Assembly: GCF_026626705.1 (NCBI RefSeq)
Contig: NZ_JAPNKC010000001.1
Coordinates: 11,967,001 to 12,031,000 of the forward strand
Origin: Pyxidicoccus sp. MSG2
GTDB lineage: Bacteria > Myxococcota > Myxococcia > Myxococcales > Myxococcaceae
Direction: 5' to 3'
DNA length: 64,000 nucleotides
Under the pieces are notes generated by a model that searched no databases, was not told where the DNA came from, and worked only from the letters and a program-made list of their open reading frames with translations. Made by a program: the position numbers and the translations under genes. Shown piece after piece: positions 30,834-37,702 of this stretch (within the stretch, counting starts at the first letter, position 1; each line of letters begins with the position of its first letter).

Positions 30834-32122
30834 GCCAGAAGATCTCCGGCGTGAAGGGCATGAACGATCTCCTCCCCGGGGAGATCGAGATCTGGCAGCA
30901 CGTGGAGGGCACGGCGCGCGAGCTGTTCGGCCGGTTCGGCTACGGGGAGATCCGCACGCCCATGGTGGAGGACACCGCGCTCTTCGTGCGCAGCGTGGGC
31001 GAAGAGACGGACATCGTCGGCAAGGAGATGTACACGTTCCTCGACAAGGGCGAGCGCAGCCTGTCGCTCCGTCCCGAGGGCACCGCGCCCGCGGCGCGCG
31101 CATACATCGAGCACGCCATCAGCAACCAGGAGCCCGTCACCCGCTGGTTCTACATGGGGCCCATGTTCCGCTACGAGCGGATGAAGACGGGCCGCTACCG
31201 CCAGTTCTATCAAATCGGCGCGGAGGCCTACGGCGCGAAGGAGGCCGCCCAGGACGCAGAGATGATGGACATGGTGGTCCAGTTCCTGAACGCGCTGGAC
31301 CTGAAGGACGTGTCCCTCAACCTCAACTCCCTGGGGGACGAGGCGTGCCGGCCCGCGTACCACTCGAAGCTGGTGGAGTACCTGAAGGCGCACCGCGAGG
31401 AGTTGTGCGGTGACTGCCAGCGGCGCATGGAGACCAACCCGCTGCGGGTGCTCGACTGCAAGAACGAGAAGTGCCAGGCCGTCGCCGCGGCGGGGCCCAA
31501 CGTGCTCGAGTTCCTGTGCGAGCCGTGCCGCGCGCACTTCGATGATTTGCAGCGCAAGCTGACGGCGCTGGGCATCAAGTACGTCGTCAATCCGCGCATG
31601 GTGCGCGGCCTGGACTACTACACGCGCACCGTCTTCGAGTTCATCGCCTCGCACCCCGCGCTGGGCACCGCCAGCACCGTGGGCGGCGGCGGCCGGTACG
31701 ACAAGATGATGAAGGGCCTGGGCGGGCCGGACGTGCCCGCCGTGGGCTTCGCCATGGGCCTGGACCGGCTGGTGCTGCTGCTCAAGGAGAGCGGCCGCAA
31801 GTACACCGCCGCGCCGGACCTGTTCGTGGCCGTGGCGGACGAGGGCTCGCAGGACGTGGCCTTCACGCTGGCCAGCCGCCTGCGCCGCGAGGGGCTGCGC
31901 GTGGACTTCGACACGCGCGGAGGCAGCCTCAAGAGCCAGATGAAGCGCGCGGACAAGAGCGGCGCGCGCTTCACCCTCGTGCTGGGCGAGGCCGAACGCA
32001 CCAGCGGCCAGGCGAAGCTGAAGCCCATGGCCGGTGGTGACGCCATCCCCGTGTCCCTGGACAGTGTGGCGGAGACCATCCGCCGCGCCCGGCAGGACGC
32101 CCAGCCGGCGGGCTCCGCCTGA
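30830..32122 (+). CDS. hisS: Histidine--tRNA ligase
   Basis: A 430-residue class II aminoacyl-tRNA synthetase. Motif 2 is in MFRYERMKTGRYRQFYQ. The histidine-binding motifs are RGLDYYTRTVFEF near 258 and FAMGLDRL. A C-terminal anticodon-binding domain (about 330-430) follows. A Cys-rich insertion with CGDC, CKNEKC and CEPC at about 197-230 looks like a zinc knuckle. The GTG start overlaps the psd stop in GTGA, so translation is coupled. Confidence 0.97.
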   Translation: MSQKISGVKGMNDLLPGEIEIWQHVEGTARELFGRFGYGEIRTPMVEDTALFVRSVGEETDIVGKEMYTFLDKGERSLSLRPEGTAPAARAYIEHAISNQEPVTRWFYMGPMFRYERMKTGRYRQFYQIGAEAYGAKEAAQDAEMMDMVVQFLNALDLKDVSLNLNSLGDEACRPAYHSKLVEYLKAHREELCGDCQRRMETNPLRVLDCKNEKCQAVAAAGPNVLEFLCEPCRAHFDDLQRKLTALGIKYVVNPRMVRGLDYYTRTVFEFIASHPALGTASTVGGGGRYDKMMKGLGGPDVPAVGFAMGLDRLVLLLKESGRKYTAAPDLFVAVADEGSQDVAFTLASRLRREGLRVDFDTRGGSLKSQMKRADKSGARFTLVLGEAERTSGQAKLKPMAGGDAIPVSLDSVAETIRRARQDAQPAGSA

Positions 32123-32305: not shown

Positions 32306-32713
32306 ATGCAGCCAGAATCTTCCCATTCCACCGTGCCATCGGCGCTGCGCTGGATCCCCGTGCGAGGGGACAGCATGTGGCCGTCGTTGCGCTCGGGGGA
32401 CCTGGCGGGTGTGGAGCCGCTGGCTCGCGAGCCGCGTCCCGGTGAGGTGGTGCTGGCGCGGTTCGATCATGCGCTGGTGCTTCACCGGGTGAAGCGGTGT
32501 GACGCGGGAGTGCTCGCGCTGCGCGGGGACAACTCGCCGGCGGAGGATCCGCCGCTGCCGCCGTCGCGCGTGCTTGGGCTGGTGCGGCGGGTGCAGCGCA
32601 GCGGCGTGGTGCTGGAGGCGGGTTGGGATTCGGGCCCGTCGCGGCTGGGGCGCTGGCGGGTGGCGGTGAAGTGGCGCCTGGCGGCGCTATTGGGGCGGGG
32701 AGGGCGCTCATGA
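32306..32713 (+). CDS. S24/S26-type (signal-peptidase-like) serine peptidase
   Basis: A 135-residue protein. RGDSMWPSL (nucleophile S23) and LVLHRVKR (H60, R61) match the S26B/SipW-type pattern, where His replaces the general-base Lys. The segment ALRGDNSPAEDPPLP continues the family core. It has no N-terminal transmembrane segment, unlike ordinary signal peptidase I, so the active site may lie in the cytoplasm; an amphipathic C-terminus could still bind membrane. It overlaps the PqqD-like gene by four bases. In peptide-modification clusters such proteases may remove leader peptides; that role here is inference from the operon. Confidence 0.75.
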   Translation: MQPESSHSTVPSALRWIPVRGDSMWPSLRSGDLAGVEPLAREPRPGEVVLARFDHALVLHRVKRCDAGVLALRGDNSPAEDPPLPPSRVLGLVRRVQRSGVVLEAGWDSGPSRLGRWRVAVKWRLAALLGRGGRS

Positions 32714-33006
32714 GCGCGGGCTTCGGTGAGGACCGCGTTCCCCGGCCGCGCGAGGGCGTGTCCGGGCAGCGGTTCGGCTCGGACTACATCGTGCTGGACG
32801 CGGAGGGGCGCACGCTGCGCGGGCTGAACCCGACGGCGATTCGCGTCTGGGAGCTCTGCGACGGAAAGCGCACCGCGCGCGCCGTGGCGGAGCAGGTGGC
32901 CGGAGAATTCAAGGCGGACGCGCGGCAGGTCCTCACGGACACGCTGCGGTTCCTGACGGAACTGGCCCGGTTGGGCCTCATTGACGAGCTTCAGGAGGTA
33001 CGGTGA
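32710..33006 (+). CDS. PqqD-like peptide chaperone (RRE domain)
   Basis: A 98-residue single-domain protein. The fold pattern is DYIVLDAEGRTLRGLNPTA, a helix-rich middle starting RVWELCDGKRT, then TDTLRFLTELARLGLID. This is the winged-helix RRE domain that binds leader peptides in ribosomally made, modified peptide pathways. It starts in the ATGA overlap with the peptidase gene and ends one base into the next start. Its presence is the strongest single sign that the operon processes a gene-encoded peptide. Confidence 0.8.
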   Translation: MSAGFGEDRVPRPREGVSGQRFGSDYIVLDAEGRTLRGLNPTAIRVWELCDGKRTARAVAEQVAGEFKADARQVLTDTLRFLTELARLGLIDELQEVR

Positions 33007-33536
33007 TGCGAGCGCGCACGGCGTTCCTCGCGGCGGCGTTGTGCCTGTCCGCGTGCACGGAGGGGGTGTCCCCCCTCGCCCTGGTGGGTCGGGGAGACAC
33101 GGAGGAGCAACCCCCGGGTTCCCTCCCCGCCACGGACGTCCTGGCGGACGGGCCGGAGAGCGCGCGGCAGCCTCCGCCGCAGGAGATTGAACCCGCGCCC
33201 GCGGTGATTCCGGTGACGGGCAGCGCGGCCGTCGTGGGCCTGGAAGAGGGCTCCCGGGGCCTGTCGTCCGTTCCCCAGGTGGACGTGGACCTGACGGTGA
33301 ATGGCGTGCGCGGACGCGGCACGGTGGAGGTGGAGTTCGTGTCGCCGGCAGGCCACCCCTACGAGCGGCGCTCGTCGGTGGTGGAGGCGCAGCCGGACGT
33401 GGCGCGCACGGTGCGCTTCTCGCTGCCGGTGGCCGGTACCACCGTGGCCACCACGGGCATGAGCGGGACGTGGCAGGTGCGCTTCTTCCTCGACGGCGAG
33501 CCGCTGACCTCGGCCGCCTTCACCCTGGAGCCGTGA
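33006..33536 (+). CDS. Lipoprotein with Ig-like C-terminal domain
   Basis: A 176-residue protein. The ATG at 33006 is seven bases after AGGAGG, an ideal site, and is preferred to the GTG three bases earlier. The signal sequence ends in the lipobox LSAC. A Pro/Glu/Ala-rich spacer (about 20-70) is followed by a beta-sandwich-like segment (GTVEVEFVSPAGHPYERR ... GTWQVRFFLDGEPL). It probably sits in the outer membrane. It lies between the PqqD-like gene and the large secreted gene with almost no spacing, so it belongs to the same operon. Confidence 0.75.
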   Translation: MRARTAFLAAALCLSACTEGVSPLALVGRGDTEEQPPGSLPATDVLADGPESARQPPPQEIEPAPAVIPVTGSAAVVGLEEGSRGLSSVPQVDVDLTVNGVRGRGTVEVEFVSPAGHPYERRSSVVEAQPDVARTVRFSLPVAGTTVATTGMSGTWQVRFFLDGEPLTSAAFTLEP

Positions 33537-33552
33537 CGTGAGGCCCGCCGCC

Positions 33553-36500
33553 ATGAAGCCCTTCAACGCCCGCCTCGCGGTGCTCCTTGCGTTCCTGGTG
33601 CCGACCCTCGCCGCGGCGCAGGCGCGATCGTGGACCGCCACCGCCATGCCTGGTCCGGGCGACACCGCCGCGCGGGTGGTGATGGACGAGGCCTCCGTGC
33701 TGACCATCCGCGTGGTCAACACCGCGAACAACAACTCACGCCGGCTGTCCCTGCTCTCCTTCATCCTCCCCACCGGCTACACCCTGCTGGACACCGATCC
33801 GCCCCCGGGTTGGGAGCTCACGGACCTGGACGTCCCGAGCCGGCGCATCATGTTCACGTCGACGGTCGGCTCGTGCGCGAACGGCGACTACGGTCTGCCC
33901 CAGGGAGGGACTGTCACCTTCACCATCCGGGTCATTGCGCCCGCGGGTGCCGCGGATGTTGCCGCGGACCGGTTCGTGACGGGCAACACGAACACCTACG
34001 GCAGGGATCACTGCGACAACACCCTCTTCACCGCGAACCTGACCGCGGCGGCGTGGACCCGCTCGGGCCTGTACACCCAGGCCGCCATCCGTCCGCCCGC
34101 GCTGGGCGTCGGTGGGGAGACGGAGGCCCGCATCGTCGTCGAGAACCGCACCACGGCGACGCAGACCGGCGTCACCGCCGTGGGGCCGTCCACCGGCTCC
34201 ATCACGTTCAACGTGCTGAGCCTGGATCCCAACCCGTTCCAGGTGAACATCCCCGTGCGGAACGCGGGGGTCCTCGTGGCGCGCGTGCAGCCGACCTCGG
34301 CAGGCGCGACGGAGGCCCAGGTCCAGGCCGTCAACGCCGCCAACACCACCACCTCGCAGGTGGCGGGGACGTCGATGCTGAACGTGGCCCCGATGGCGGC
34401 CGCGCTCGACGTGGACGCCGTGGACGCCTTCAGCGGTGACACGGTGCGGGTGCGGATGACGGTGACCAACACGTCCACCACCGACTCGCTCGTGGACGTG
34501 CGGCCGCGGAATCTGGTCACCCAGGGCTCGGCCACCTTCGCGGCCCTGTCGGGTCCCACCCCGGCCAGCGTGAGCCGGCTCGCGCCGGGGACGTCCGCGC
34601 ACTTCGTCTGGACCTACCAGGTCACCGGCGCCGAGCGTGCGAGCTACAGCTTCCGGGCCCAGGCGGATGCGACCCGGAATGGCACCGCCGTGGCGGGTGA
34701 CCTCGTGGACTCGGCGCAGGGGAGCATCGTCCGGCATCGCGTGCGCATCAGCCCGGCCGCCCTGGCGGGCAACGCCACCACGCAGACCGTCACGTACACG
34801 GTGCAGAATCGCGGGACGCAGCCCATCACCGCGGTGCAGCTGCTGAGGCCCGCGGCCAACTACTTCACCTGGTCCAGCACGCCGAACGTCACCGGCTGGT
34901 CGTCGAACCGCAACGCCACCACTGGCATCATCGTCTGGACGCCCACGGGCGCGGGCATCCCCGTGGGTGGGGAGCGGGCGTTCTCCGTGGTGTATTCGAA
35001 CTTCGGCTCCGGCACGTCGCTCACCGGGCCCACGGCGTTCCGCCACCGCATCCATGTGGTGGACAACGGGCAGCTGCCGCCCAAGCGCATCGAGGCGCCG
35101 GTAACGTTGCTGACCGGCACCGCGCCGGAGGTGGAGCGCCTCACGGCGGTGGCTCGCGATGCCAGCGTGACGCTGACCTGGGACAACCCCGCGCTGCACA
35201 ACGGTGTCCTGGTGCTGCGCGCGGCAGGCGCGGCGCCGAACACCGCGCCCGTGCAGGGCCGGAGCTACGCGGTGGGGGCAACCTTGGGCAACGCCACCGT
35301 CGTCTACACGGATGCGTTCAGCACGGCCTCCACCTTCACGGACTCCACCGTCGCCAACGACACCACGTACTACTACCGCGTGTACAACGCGGATGACGTG
35401 CGCTGGTACTCGGCGGGCAACCGGCCCACGTCGGCGGCGCTGGTGGCCACGCCCCGGGCGCGGCTGACCAACGCGCCGCTGTGGTGCTACTCGGTGGGCC
35501 TGGACGCGCGGCAGCAGCCCATCACCGAGCTGGGCGTGGGCATCTTCAGCTCCTTCAACAACTCCGTGGTGGCGAGCACCACGCAGGTGAGCAACCCGGC
35601 CCAGGACGGCGCCGAGCGCTGGAGGCCGCTGCCCCTGTCGGGCCTCATCGGCAGCCGCTTCCCCGTGGTGCCGCTGCGTGGCCTGACCGGCCAGTACATC
35701 CTGGTGGGAGACCAGGCCGGCGTCGCCTACGCCATCAACGCCACCACCGGCCAGGTGCTGTGGCGGTGGGACAACGGCGGCACGCCCATCGGCACCATCC
35801 AGTCGTTCCCCGTCACGCAGCTCCATGACTTCGCCAATGCGGCGTTCCAGGCCGCGCACCCTGGCAGGGACCTGGTGTTCTTCGCCACGCGGCTGGCGAA
35901 CCCGGCGCAGAACCGTGTGGTGGCGCTCAATGCCGCCACGGGCGCGGTGGTGTGGACGTACCAGCCCGGAGACCTGGGCATGGTCAGCGGCGGCATGGTG
36001 GTGGACTACACGACCAATCGCCTCTTCATCGGCATGAAGACGCACGCGGGCTCCACGGACACGCTGCGCGTCCTCAACACGCTGGCCACCGGCCCCACCG
36101 CGCAGGAAGTCGCGCGGCTGCCCGCCGGTGACATCGACGTGAGCCTGGTGCGCAACGCGGTGAGCAACCTCATCTTCGCGACGGACAGCGACGGCACCGT
36201 GCACGCAGTGAGCGTGAGCACGCTGCAGCCGGCGTGGAACCTGACCATCGCCTCGCGCCCGGCGCCGAGCACTCCTGCCTTCACCAGCTTCGTGCGCCCT
36301 CAGGGCGCGGGCTTCGTGGCCAGCCTCGCCGCGGGCCAGGTGGCGTTCTACGACACGACGAACGTCACCGTCGCGCCGACGCTGAAGTGGAGCACGCCCA
36401 TCGCGTCTCCATCCGGCACGTTCTCCTTCAACCGCAACGCGGTGGCCCGTGTGTACGTGGGCAGCTCGGATGGGAAGGTGCACCAGCTCGAGCTGACCAA

Positions 36501-36636
36501 TGGCGCGGATTCGCAGCAGGTCTCGATTGGCGGGGCGCAGCGCATCGGCACTCCGACGGTCGACACCACCGTGAGCCGCCTGCACGTGGGCTCGGAAGAT
36601 GGCCGCATCTGCGCTTTCCCGGTACCCTTCCCGTGA
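33553..36636 (+). CDS. Large secreted protein: Ig/FN3-like repeats and PQQ-type beta-propeller
   Basis: A 1027-residue exported protein. The signal peptide is MKPFNARLA with a hydrophobic run ending TLAAA (about residue 24). Residues about 25-500 contain several Ig-like/DUF11-like repeats (strand patterns such as VLTIRVVNTANNNSRR and VRVRMTVTNTSTTDSL). A fibronectin-III-like unit follows (about 520-620, VTLTWDNPALHNGVLVLR). The C-terminus (about 650-1027) is a PQQ-type propeller with repeats of the form AINATTGQVLWRW and ALNAATGAVVWTY. No dehydrogenase residues or c-haem motif is evident, so it is more likely a binding or surface protein than an enzyme. A GTG at 33538 is an alternative start. 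The peptide gene follows after 17 bases. Confidence 0.8.
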   Translation: MKPFNARLAVLLAFLVPTLAAAQARSWTATAMPGPGDTAARVVMDEASVLTIRVVNTANNNSRRLSLLSFILPTGYTLLDTDPPPGWELTDLDVPSRRIMFTSTVGSCANGDYGLPQGGTVTFTIRVIAPAGAADVAADRFVTGNTNTYGRDHCDNTLFTANLTAAAWTRSGLYTQAAIRPPALGVGGETEARIVVENRTTATQTGVTAVGPSTGSITFNVLSLDPNPFQVNIPVRNAGVLVARVQPTSAGATEAQVQAVNAANTTTSQVAGTSMLNVAPMAAALDVDAVDAFSGDTVRVRMTVTNTSTTDSLVDVRPRNLVTQGSATFAALSGPTPASVSRLAPGTSAHFVWTYQVTGAERASYSFRAQADATRNGTAVAGDLVDSAQGSIVRHRVRISPAALAGNATTQTVTYTVQNRGTQPITAVQLLRPAANYFTWSSTPNVTGWSSNRNATTGIIVWTPTGAGIPVGGERAFSVVYSNFGSGTSLTGPTAFRHRIHVVDNGQLPPKRIEAPVTLLTGTAPEVERLTAVARDASVTLTWDNPALHNGVLVLRAAGAAPNTAPVQGRSYAVGATLGNATVVYTDAFSTASTFTDSTVANDTTYYYRVYNADDVRWYSAGNRPTSAALVATPRARLTNAPLWCYSVGLDARQQPITELGVGIFSSFNNSVVASTTQVSNPAQDGAERWRPLPLSGLIGSRFPVVPLRGLTGQYILVGDQAGVAYAINATTGQVLWRWDNGGTPIGTIQSFPVTQLHDFANAAFQAAHPGRDLVFFATRLANPAQNRVVALNAATGAVVWTYQPGDLGMVSGGMVVDYTTNRLFIGMKTHAGSTDTLRVLNTLATGPTAQEVARLPAGDIDVSLVRNAVSNLIFATDSDGTVHAVSVSTLQPAWNLTIASRPAPSTPAFTSFVRPQGAGFVASLAAGQVAFYDTTNVTVAPTLKWSTPIASPSGTFSFNRNAVARVYVGSSDGKVHQLELTNGADSQQVSIGGAQRIGTPTVDTTVSRLHVGSEDGRICAFPVPFP

Positions 36637-36653
36637 GAAAAGAGCCTTCCTCC

Positions 36654-36812
36654 ATGACGGCCCGGAACCCTGACATGAACGCCTCGCAGGCCCCTGCCAC
36701 CGAGGCGCGCCCGAAGTACGAGGCGCCCGCAATCCTCTGGGAGCAACCCTTCGTGGCGCTGGCGCAGATCTCCCAGTGCAACATCCCGGGCGAATCGGAG
36801 TGCACGCCCTGA
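36654..36812 (+). CDS. 52-residue peptide; candidate modified-peptide precursor
   Basis: A short ORF between two tightly spaced genes of the same operon. The peptide divides into an Ala/Pro/Thr-rich N-terminal part and a C-terminal part opening YEAPAILWEQPFVALAQISQ. The last 15 residues have two Cys (C42, C50), three possible phospho-acceptors (S40, S48, T51) and a final Pro. A leader with a YxxPxIxxExPFxAL-like pattern followed by a short core is typical of precursors handled by PqqD-like proteins. The kinase start codon lies inside its 3' end. A coding role is supported by operon position and composition; modification and product are not demonstrated. Confidence 0.65.
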   Translation: MTARNPDMNASQAPATEARPKYEAPAILWEQPFVALAQISQCNIPGESECTP

Positions 36813-37702
36813 GTACCTCGGGAACCGGCCTGCCCGGTCCCGATGGCTCCGGCAGTCCTGACGACGCTCCACGGTCCACCGGCGTGCACCTGCGCATCGC
36901 TGGGTGGACGGTGGCGGTGGAGGTGGCTGACGCGGGCCTTCGCGGCTCGCTGCGGCGGCTGTTCTCCCGGTTCCTCGTCTCCGTGGAAGAAGGCGGCGCG
37001 GTGGCCCGGCTGGAGGTGATCTCGCCCGAGGTGGTGAGGCCCGCGCCCGCCACCCGGGAGCTTCCCCGGGTTCAGCGCGCTCCGGAGGGCTCGCTGCAGT
37101 TGGAGGGCGAGGACTACTCCGCGACGCTCGCAGCGGATGGCCTGCGCGCTACGGTGGTGGGGCAGGGACGCTTTCCCGTGGAGACGGTGCTGAAGGTGAT
37201 GCTCGCGGGGGCGCTCGCCCGGCGCGGGGGCCTGCTGGTGCATGGCGTGGCCGTGGCACACATGGGGCGGGCCGCGTTGTTCGTGGGTCACTCGGGGGCG
37301 GGGAAGAGCACCCTGGGGGCTCTGTGGACGGAGACGGGTGGGGAATTGCTCTCCGATGAGCTGGTGGCCGTGTGGCCGGAGCTGGGGACAGGGCGCGCTG
37401 CGTGGCGGGTTGCGGGGACGCCCTGGAACACAGGTGTCCCAGTGGAGGCCATGTTGAAGGCGGTGGGCACGCTGGCCTGGGACACGGGCTCGCGGTGGGA
37501 GTCGCAGCCGGCGGGTGAAGTAGGGCGCATGTTGCTGCTCAATGCGCTGTTGCCCGAGGCCACCGCGGCCGGGCGGGGCGGACTGTTGGCCTCGGCGGGA
37601 AGACTGCTGTCGGAAGTGGCCCCGGTGCGGCTGGTGTTCGCGCGGAATGAGTCTGCTACGGCGGTGGTCCGTGGCGCGCTGGAGGCGGCGAGTCATGGGT
37701 GA
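36800..37702 (+). CDS. HprK-like P-loop kinase, probable peptide kinase
   Basis: A protein of about 300 residues resembling HPr kinase/phosphorylase. The P-loop GHSGAGKST is at 163-171, preceded by the family's GGLLVHGVAVAHMGRAALFV. A LLSDELVAV segment gives the Walker B Asp. The N-terminal half has no HprK regulatory domain. HprK-like kinases without HPr partners occur in peptide pathways, where one (in a lasso cluster) phosphorylates a Ser of the peptide. The GTG at 36800 overlaps the peptide gene by 13 bases; starts at 36776 or 36884 are possible. The overlap suggests coupled translation with the 52-residue peptide. Confidence 0.75.
   Translation: MHALSTSGTGLPGPDGSGSPDDAPRSTGVHLRIAGWTVAVEVADAGLRGSLRRLFSRFLVSVEEGGAVARLEVISPEVVRPAPATRELPRVQRAPEGSLQLEGEDYSATLAADGLRATVVGQGRFPVETVLKVMLAGALARRGGLLVHGVAVAHMGRAALFVGHSGAGKSTLGALWTETGGELLSDELVAVWPELGTGRAAWRVAGTPWNTGVPVEAMLKAVGTLAWDTGSRWESQPAGEVGRMLLLNALLPEATAAGRGGLLASAGRLLSEVAPVRLVFARNESATAVVRGALEAASHG

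Follow-up and report, generated by a model that had tools for sequence, protein, structure and literature searches.

A conserved myxobacterial operon predicted to process a small ribosomal peptide in the manner of linear polyphosphorylated peptides, with a secreted propeller protein as its most constant companion

What is made by a 52-codon gene that lies between the genes for a large secreted propeller protein and a kinase? The question is raised by a stretch of 64,000 nucleotides from the myxobacterium Pyxidicoccus sp. MSG2 (the window, by which we mean this whole stretch). At 32306-37702 on its plus strand, between hisS, which ends at 32122, and miaA, which starts with the ATG at 37695, six co-directional genes encode, in order, an S24/S26 peptidase, a PqqD-type recognition element for modified ribosomal peptides (RRE), a lipoprotein, a protein of immunoglobulin-like (Ig) repeats and an eight-bladed propeller, the 52-residue peptide and an HprK-like kinase. 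The original prediction, made from the letters of the window, had described six genes in a row that overlap or are 1-20 bases apart, and its order, coordinates and spacing were right: adjoining genes overlap by 4, 1 or 13 nt or are separated by 16 or 17 nt. We propose, with a probability of about 0.65, that the operon yields a small peptide of ribosomal origin whose processing resembles that of the linear polyphosphorylated peptides (LPPs) of Bacillota, and that this peptide is in partnership with the propeller protein.

That the 52-codon frame (36654-36812, plus strand) is a real and conserved gene, as had been predicted, is evident from its recurrence. Of 195 Myxococcota genomes, 56 contain a match to a profile of the peptide at E≤1e-5 (59 at E≤0.05; G078, G093 and G171, with E values of 0.001-0.02, were left out), and the kinase gene follows immediately in 53 of these, with hit edges at -60 to +51 nt. 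The short frame is also kept where its neighbours are, being present in all 53 genomes in which the kinase is closely matched (E≤1e-20). The three exceptions to adjacency are G015, where the propeller and lipoprotein genes intervene in the same locus, and G092 and G128, which are considered below. The encoded peptide reads MTARNPDMNASQAPATEARPKYEAPAILWEQPFVALA followed by QISQCNIPGESECTP, the predicted cleavage lying between the two, and by eye no signal peptide is visible on it. Across 44 distinct DNA stretches the ratio of non-synonymous to synonymous change (pN/pS) is 0.82 for the eight codons before the leader motif and 0.10 for leader positions -16 to -1, the latter value being biased low because the motif by which the stretches were chosen prescribes a core of 15 residues and some of the leader residues. 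Recurrence across genomes and selection together rule out a chance reading frame or a frame artefact.

The constrained segment, Y22 (-16) to A37 (-1; 36717-36764), is the putative site of leader recognition. In 34 distinct leader/core strings P-13 and W-9 are invariant and position -16 holds Tyr in 33 strings, the remaining one having Trp, counts that have to be read with the leader pattern of this table, which demands the Y/W, P and W positions and which no peptide failed. Position -5 is Phe in 33 of the 34, and -1 is Ala in 31, Thr in two and Gly in one. The predicted core (36765-36809) contains Cys42 and Cys50 and, at its third residue, Ser40 (codon 36771-36773), which by conservation and by analogy with LPPs is the probable phosphorylation site; position +3 is Ser in 32 and Thr in two of the tabulated peptides (Ser or Thr in 34/34). 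The peptides of L079 and L082 were missed by the tblastn cut-off or the length filter and stand outside the table, and that of L082 has Ser at +3. For the 15-residue cores of the 44 stretches pN/pS is 0.475 overall, 1.00 at positions 1-4, 0.18 at 5-13 and 0.77 at 14-15. Because the value for positions 5-13 is so low, the two-cysteine loop is, by this measure of codon change, conserved and not hypervariable. The variable core of the original prediction is thus not borne out in Myxococcaceae, where CxIPGESEC is strongly conserved and an arms race acting through a variable core is ruled out for that part; other cores stand beside the same propeller elsewhere.

How might such a peptide be processed? 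The LPP system of Bacillota (Popov et al. 2026, PMC13381572) comprises a protease, LppS (S29, H68, D93), an RRE, LppB, a kinase, LppK, an NTP transferase and an MsbA-like transporter; its precursor carries the motif YxxPxVLxHQxIxFETxxS, is cut after T-1 and receives several phosphates on S3. The Pyxidicoccus locus matches this scheme in the protease triad, RRE residues, kinase motifs, leader spacing and Ser3, and both systems have an HprK-like kinase and no cyclase. The leader of the window peptide (YEAPAILWEQPFVALA, continued by QISQCNIPGESECTP) fits without gaps at Y-16, P-13, I-11, L-10, Q-7, A-1 and S+3, and across the peptides the shared positions are Y-16, P-13, I/V-11, L-10, Q-7, A/T-1 and S/T+3. 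A motif of the shared positions, drawn up after both leaders were known, has a single match in all six frames of the window, which is the peptide, and none in 200 residue shuffles. Both the AxA site of cleavage and the presence of Ser or Thr at core position 3 had been recognised before the comparison with LPPs was made.

The enzymes point in the same direction. The peptidase (32306-32713, plus strand, 135 aa), a candidate leader peptidase, matches PF00717 Peptidase_S24 at 46 bits (cut-off 23.3), and its residues S23, H60 and D75, which are invariant in an alignment of 20 sequences, correspond to S29, H68 and D93 of LppS. It scores 27 bits against the archaeal-type signal peptidase, below the cut-off of 51.85, and its best NCBIfam match, the NiSOD maturation protease, reaches 35 bits, below the cut-off of 63. 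The hook of NiSOD has the pattern HCxxPC; the peptide core lacks it, and an analogy with the hook was dropped. The RRE gene (32710-33006, plus strand, 98 aa) overlaps the peptidase gene by 4 nt and matches PF05402 at 58 bits (cut-off 23.4). Its family profile retrieves the LppB structure 9x8z at 1.8e-10, and N40, D77 and F81 align, with identical spacing, with N33, D70 and F74 of LppB, N40 and F81 being invariant and D77 nearly so in 25 sequences. Both systems thus have a discrete PqqD-type RRE with the Asn and Asp residues for YxxP. In LppB, D70, the equivalent of D77, bonds the leader Tyr; residues like N33 and D70 are common to many PQQ and lasso RREs too, and so are not specific to LPPs (PMC13381572). 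The lone Trp-16 leader among the 34 (G092, L078) occurs with an RRE in which Glu replaces D77, and as read from the alignments this is one natural case of a matched change at the Tyr-binding residue; Tyr-to-Trp with Asp-to-Glu would provide a natural pair for work on RRE specificity. Elsewhere in the window genome a second, partial PqqD match lies at G000:C1:550225-550338.

The kinase gene most likely starts with the GTG at 36800, in place of which several relatives have ATG in the kinase alignment. From there it runs to 37702 on the plus strand (300 aa), overlapping the peptide gene by 13 nt at its start and miaA (ATG at 37695) at its end. The protein has the motifs H147, a P-loop, D185E186 and G205-P207, and H147, G165, G167, K168, T170, D185, E186, G205 and P207 are invariant in 36 sequences, nine of which are paralogues from other loci (residue numbers follow P0005, which begins one residue after the GTG start). 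Its match to HprK_C is weak, at 15 bits (cut-off 33). The AlphaFold2 model (pLDDT 90.6) is PEPCK-like, the best structural matches being PEPCKs (Z 15.0, rmsd 4.8, 248 aligned), and no HprK chain is among the 50 PDB matches listed; PEPCK and HprK share the P-loop kinase fold. In the kinases of some species (L037 and L040) an insertion of about 20-45 residues lies between the DE and GTP motifs (alignment columns 260-315).

From family membership, residue conservation and the experimental precedent of the LPPs we infer the first three steps of a pathway. The PqqD-type protein would grip the leader motif YxxPxI; the HprK-like kinase would phosphorylate the held precursor, once or several times, on core Ser/Thr 3 (Ser40); and the Ser-His-Asp protease of the S26 type would cut after Ala-Leu-Ala (Ala37), releasing a core of about 15 residues whose two cysteines could close a nine-residue loop around a Pro-Gly turn. 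In a fourth step, which the constant gene partnership suggests, the core would act jointly with the lipoprotein and the secreted Ig/propeller protein, its site of action being probably the outer membrane or the surface of the cell. A phosphate on Ser40 and cleavage after Ala37 are the predictions that the locus offers. The same division of labour had been foreseen in the original prediction, in which the RRE binds, the S26-type protease trims and the kinase phosphorylates Ser; it has been shown for LPPs (PMC13381572), and is proposed by analogy for the window. A kinase-dependent peptide class with no cyclising enzyme, which had also been suggested, does exist, but it has already been published as LPP and its chemistry is not new.

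It should be emphasized, however, that several observations weigh against processing in the manner of LPPs. The hallmarks H-8, F-3 and E-2 are absent from the window leader, and positions 1-4 of the core, Ser3 included, are unconstrained as a block. Thr stands at +3 in G155 and G091, and an S3T change abolished phosphorylation of the LPP of P. alginolyticus (PMC13381572); the peptide of L079 (G085) has Val at +3, with Ser at +1 and +4. The kinase falls far below the cut-offs of NCBIfam models (31 bits vs 200). Neither an NTP transferase nor an MsbA-like transporter is encoded by the six genes or their ten neighbours, and the precursor profile finds no LPP leader at E≤10 in a PDB set without chains shorter than 20 residues. 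In G092 the kinase gene is on another contig, and G128 has two copies of the peptide gene with no adjoining kinase gene, one of them near a contig end at which the kinase gene may be cut off. In three further genomes with a propeller and a YxxP peptide (G165-G167), the 14-16 kb fetched showed no protease, RRE or kinase gene. The setting differs as well. The core here is short and conserved (CxIPGESEC), whereas that of LPPs is long and highly variable; the locus belongs to another phylum and occupies a fixed site between hisS and miaA, whereas LPP loci in Bacilli are patchy; and its companions are a secreted propeller and a lipoprotein rather than the capsule genes among which LPP loci are often found. 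The discoverers of the LPPs describe their role as unknown and the class as restricted to Bacillota (PMC13381572). Because of the missing H-8, F-3 and E-2, the missing NTP transferase and transporter, the Thr at +3, the lack of a leader match in the PDB and this restriction to Bacillota, we do not claim that the locus is a member of the LPP class.

The variation at +3 also bears on the possibility that the kinase acts on another target, such as a cytosolic regulator, and that the small frame encodes a separate disulfide peptide. HprK-type kinases do have other substrates, and Thr in two lineages and Val in one weaken the idea of a single site. In the window, however, the kinase gene starts within the peptide gene; the two are adjacent in 53/56 genomes, and by eye the small protein has no signal peptide of its own. 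We regard a separate target as quite unlikely.

A further issue is whether a cyclising enzyme has been overlooked. By domain scan the ten flanking genes encode a PfkB kinase, a PilZ protein, a phosphoesterase, a phosphatidylserine decarboxylase, HisS, MiaA, a DUF308 protein, two proteins with response-regulator domains (one of them with GGDEF) and one without a family. No transporter, cyclase or radical SAM gene is present among them or the six locus genes, and the original prediction had likewise noted no lasso cyclase, asparagine synthase or radical SAM enzyme; a hidden cyclase or transporter adjoining the locus was sought among the ten neighbours and none was found, one of the ten being without a family. 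NTP transferase (NTP_transf_5) matches do occur elsewhere in the window genome, two of them next to each other at G000:C1:3602293-3607032 (3.60 Mb). It could be argued that the locus is part of a lasso-type pathway whose synthetase and B2 protease are encoded elsewhere, with the kinase as a tailoring enzyme. The ring of lasso peptides calls for an acidic residue at core positions 7-9, where the window core has none, and an S26-type protease fits LPPs and not lasso peptides. In its favour, lasso peptides share the YxxP leader and the discrete RRE. Like those of the paeninodin/pseudomycoidin type, the locus combines an RRE and a [Y/W]xxP leader with an HprK-like kinase, the type of enzyme that tailors paeninodin (PMC8498205), and the outgroup loci described below have an NTP transferase as well. 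Unlike them, it has no macrolactam synthetase (asparagine-synthetase-like) or B2 cysteine protease among its six genes and ten neighbours, the part of the genome that was searched. A lasso-type pathway appears very improbable. PqqD and HprK relatives also occur in the systems that NCBIfam models as HPr-rel-A, SynChlorMet and GeoRSP, and the outgroup loci share radical SAM/SPASM with them; the comparison was with the models only, and the window and outgroup matches listed are all below the curated cut-offs, mostly far below.

If the peptide is processed like an LPP, what is it for? The propeller gene (33553-36636, plus strand) begins 16 nt past the lipoprotein gene and is followed after 17 nt by the peptide gene. 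Its product has Ig-like repeats and a C-terminal eight-bladed propeller (residues 638-1027 of 1027; PF13360 PQQ_2, 51 bits, cut-off 27.6), an arrangement also seen in the AlphaFold2 model (pLDDT 86.4), in which an N-terminal Ig-like array precedes the propeller. The propeller profile matches 64 of 195 genomes at E≤1e-15; G024 was set aside (92 and 119 of 1024 positions, about 10%), and the remaining 63, which include all 56 peptide genomes, without exception encode a small [Y/W]xxP peptide, of several core types. The peptide and propeller genes share a contig and a strand in 54/56 genomes, and 53 have them no more than 200 nt apart; in G091 and G092 they are on different contigs. A scan of named genomes for the propeller (80 candidate stretches examined) gave at least 28 loci, with the peptide beside the propeller by tblastn in 24/28; of the other four, L167, which shares its contig with L079, also contains the peptide, and L168, L169 and L171 have a different one. 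PqqD matches occur in 63/63 propeller genomes vs 83/132 others (146/195 overall) and HprK-like matches in 62/63 (G049 lacks one) vs 65/132 (127/195 overall), a strong association over all genomes, although related genomes in these counts are not independent. The propeller had been put forward as a hint of a surface destination or receptor. In one respect its part needs correction: the propeller is not incidental, and it accompanies the peptide more constantly than any other gene, protease and kinase included. In G069, an otherwise complete genome, the propeller gene appears in three matches with one in-frame TGA (G069:C1:6770547-6773574), the peptide and kinase matches having no stop.

This constancy gives weight to another argument, that the peptide serves the propeller protein as a subunit or maturation factor, that the enzymes mature this subunit and that phosphorylation is incidental or a processing signal. 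Small modified subunits sit on the propellers of quinohaemoprotein amine dehydrogenase and methylamine dehydrogenase. The presence of a [Y/W]xxP peptide in 63/63 propeller genomes, with several cores and differing enzyme sets, speaks for this argument. Against it, no sequence relation to those amine dehydrogenases was seen and the association is a predicted one; among the matches listed the propeller is nearest in fold to designed eight-bladed, BamB-like and WD40 propellers, and the two genes are on different contigs in G091 and G092. The idea is possible but doubtful. The propeller part matches Cake8 with Z 34.6 and BamB with Z 29 (Z 28-35 among the 50 matches listed). It is like BamB and other eight-bladed propellers in the fold of residues 638-1027, and unlike them in its fused N-terminal Ig-like array, its own signal peptide and the small RRE-type peptide gene in all 63 genomes. 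Fbw7 and Cdc4, which are phosphopeptide-binding propellers, are among the fold matches, the likeness being one of fold only. The lipoprotein (33006-33536, plus strand, 176 aa), whose gene overlaps the RRE gene by 1 nt, has by eye a signal peptide with an LSAC lipobox, matches no Pfam family and is conserved beside the propeller. In G085 and G086 an extra lipoprotein-like gene lies upstream of PqqD (L079:9075-9632, L080:625-1359).

Processing in the manner of LPPs would have to accommodate the lineages in which the gene set differs. The outgroup loci of G015 (L092:5084-12465) and G155 (L130:4584-12246) hold the peptide, PqqD, kinase, propeller and lipoprotein genes together with NTP_transf_5 (139 and 82 bits) and radical SAM/SPASM genes; an S26-type gene was noted in L092 but not in L130. 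Tailoring enzymes thus vary by lineage, while peptide and propeller stay. It could be argued that the Myxococcaceae locus is a decayed or reduced form of such a cassette, which lost its cross-linking enzyme and retained the kinase as an accessory, the key chemistry now being a disulfide. Both outgroup loci carry the additional enzymes beside the shared genes, and a search of the window genome for an orthologue of the radical SAM enzyme gave nothing close, the best match to the L130 enzyme being 31% over 158 residues. The reduced set, however, is intact in 17/17 regions fetched whole and its peptide is under purifying selection, which is not decay, and by eye no radical SAM gene was found in the stretches read of the deeper lineages G165-G167 either, so that the enzyme may have been lost or gained. 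We consider this origin unlikely.

The seven propeller genomes without a window-type peptide have another small [Y/W]xxP peptide that adjoins the propeller or partner gene. As a scan of small frames for the motif yields many chance frames, only the next frame downstream on the same strand was accepted. In G049, G052, G053 and G136 a peptide of 63-67 residues with a WxxP leader and a six-cysteine core with a conserved CCD lies directly behind the propeller (L168:3798-4001, L169:8933-9127, L171:1585-1776 and, on the minus strand, L175 near 5391). In G165, G166 and G167 (L172:5653-5838, L173:5112-5261, L174 near 5897; Myxococcota families f18 and f19) the order is propeller, secreted protein and, directly behind this partner gene, a YxxP peptide with a C...ES...C core (CSDLPEESC, CQKIFGESDVC and CQKIWGESEYC), the first Cys being 20 residues past the Tyr, the same as in Myxococcus. 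Elsewhere in each of these three genomes there is a single PqqD match and a single HprK-like one. Because such genes occur widely, in 146 and 127 of 195 genomes, their unlinked presence was dropped as proof of a pathway; the neighbourhoods of the single PqqD genes revealed no clear partner. These deep branches show the peptide without a kinase gene next to it.

One tentative interpretation is that evolution keeps not the kinase pathway but a surface module, in which an Ig/eight-bladed propeller and a lipoprotein or secreted partner hold an RRE-guided peptide as a built-in ligand or prosthetic subunit. Around the constant propeller, cores may perhaps be exchanged (CxIPGESEC, CSDLPEESC, CQKIFGESDVC, six-cysteine with CCD, single-cysteine). 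It is conceivable, with similar reserve, that enzyme sets are exchanged too (kinase and S26; kinase, radical SAM and NTP transferase; none nearby). If true, the module would represent a new use of a ribosomal modified peptide, as a phospho- or thio-modified docking element of an extracellular propeller.

The expectation that the neighbours stay together holds in the Myxococcaceae and less well beyond: all six genes are in the same order in the 17 whole regions (L064-L076, L084-L086, L088), but they are partly dispersed in G091, G092 and G128, with G091 keeping only PqqD, peptide and kinase together. hisS precedes the set in 16/17 regions (L084 has no match), and in 14/17 miaA lies no more than 200 nt beyond it, L071 and L072 having 2-3 kb inserted and L073 no miaA match. 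The locus is apparently inherited vertically at one chromosomal site. Literature searches, made largely without subscription papers, gave no account of this locus or of a myxobacterial LPP, and as far as they could tell the propeller partnership, the conserved core and the exchange of enzymes are new and the chemistry is known in outline. An LPP-like pathway in a new phylum, in genetically workable myxobacteria, whose core is conserved and whose secreted partner is constant, would make function testable by gene removal; Myxococcus xanthus strain AM003 carries an LPP-like locus. A complete myxobacterial hisS-miaA locus, with a propeller that is 61% identical, is also found in a record titled Comamonas sp. 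KCTC 72670 (L150, BNCN01000013.1), which is probably a mislabelled or contaminated assembly.

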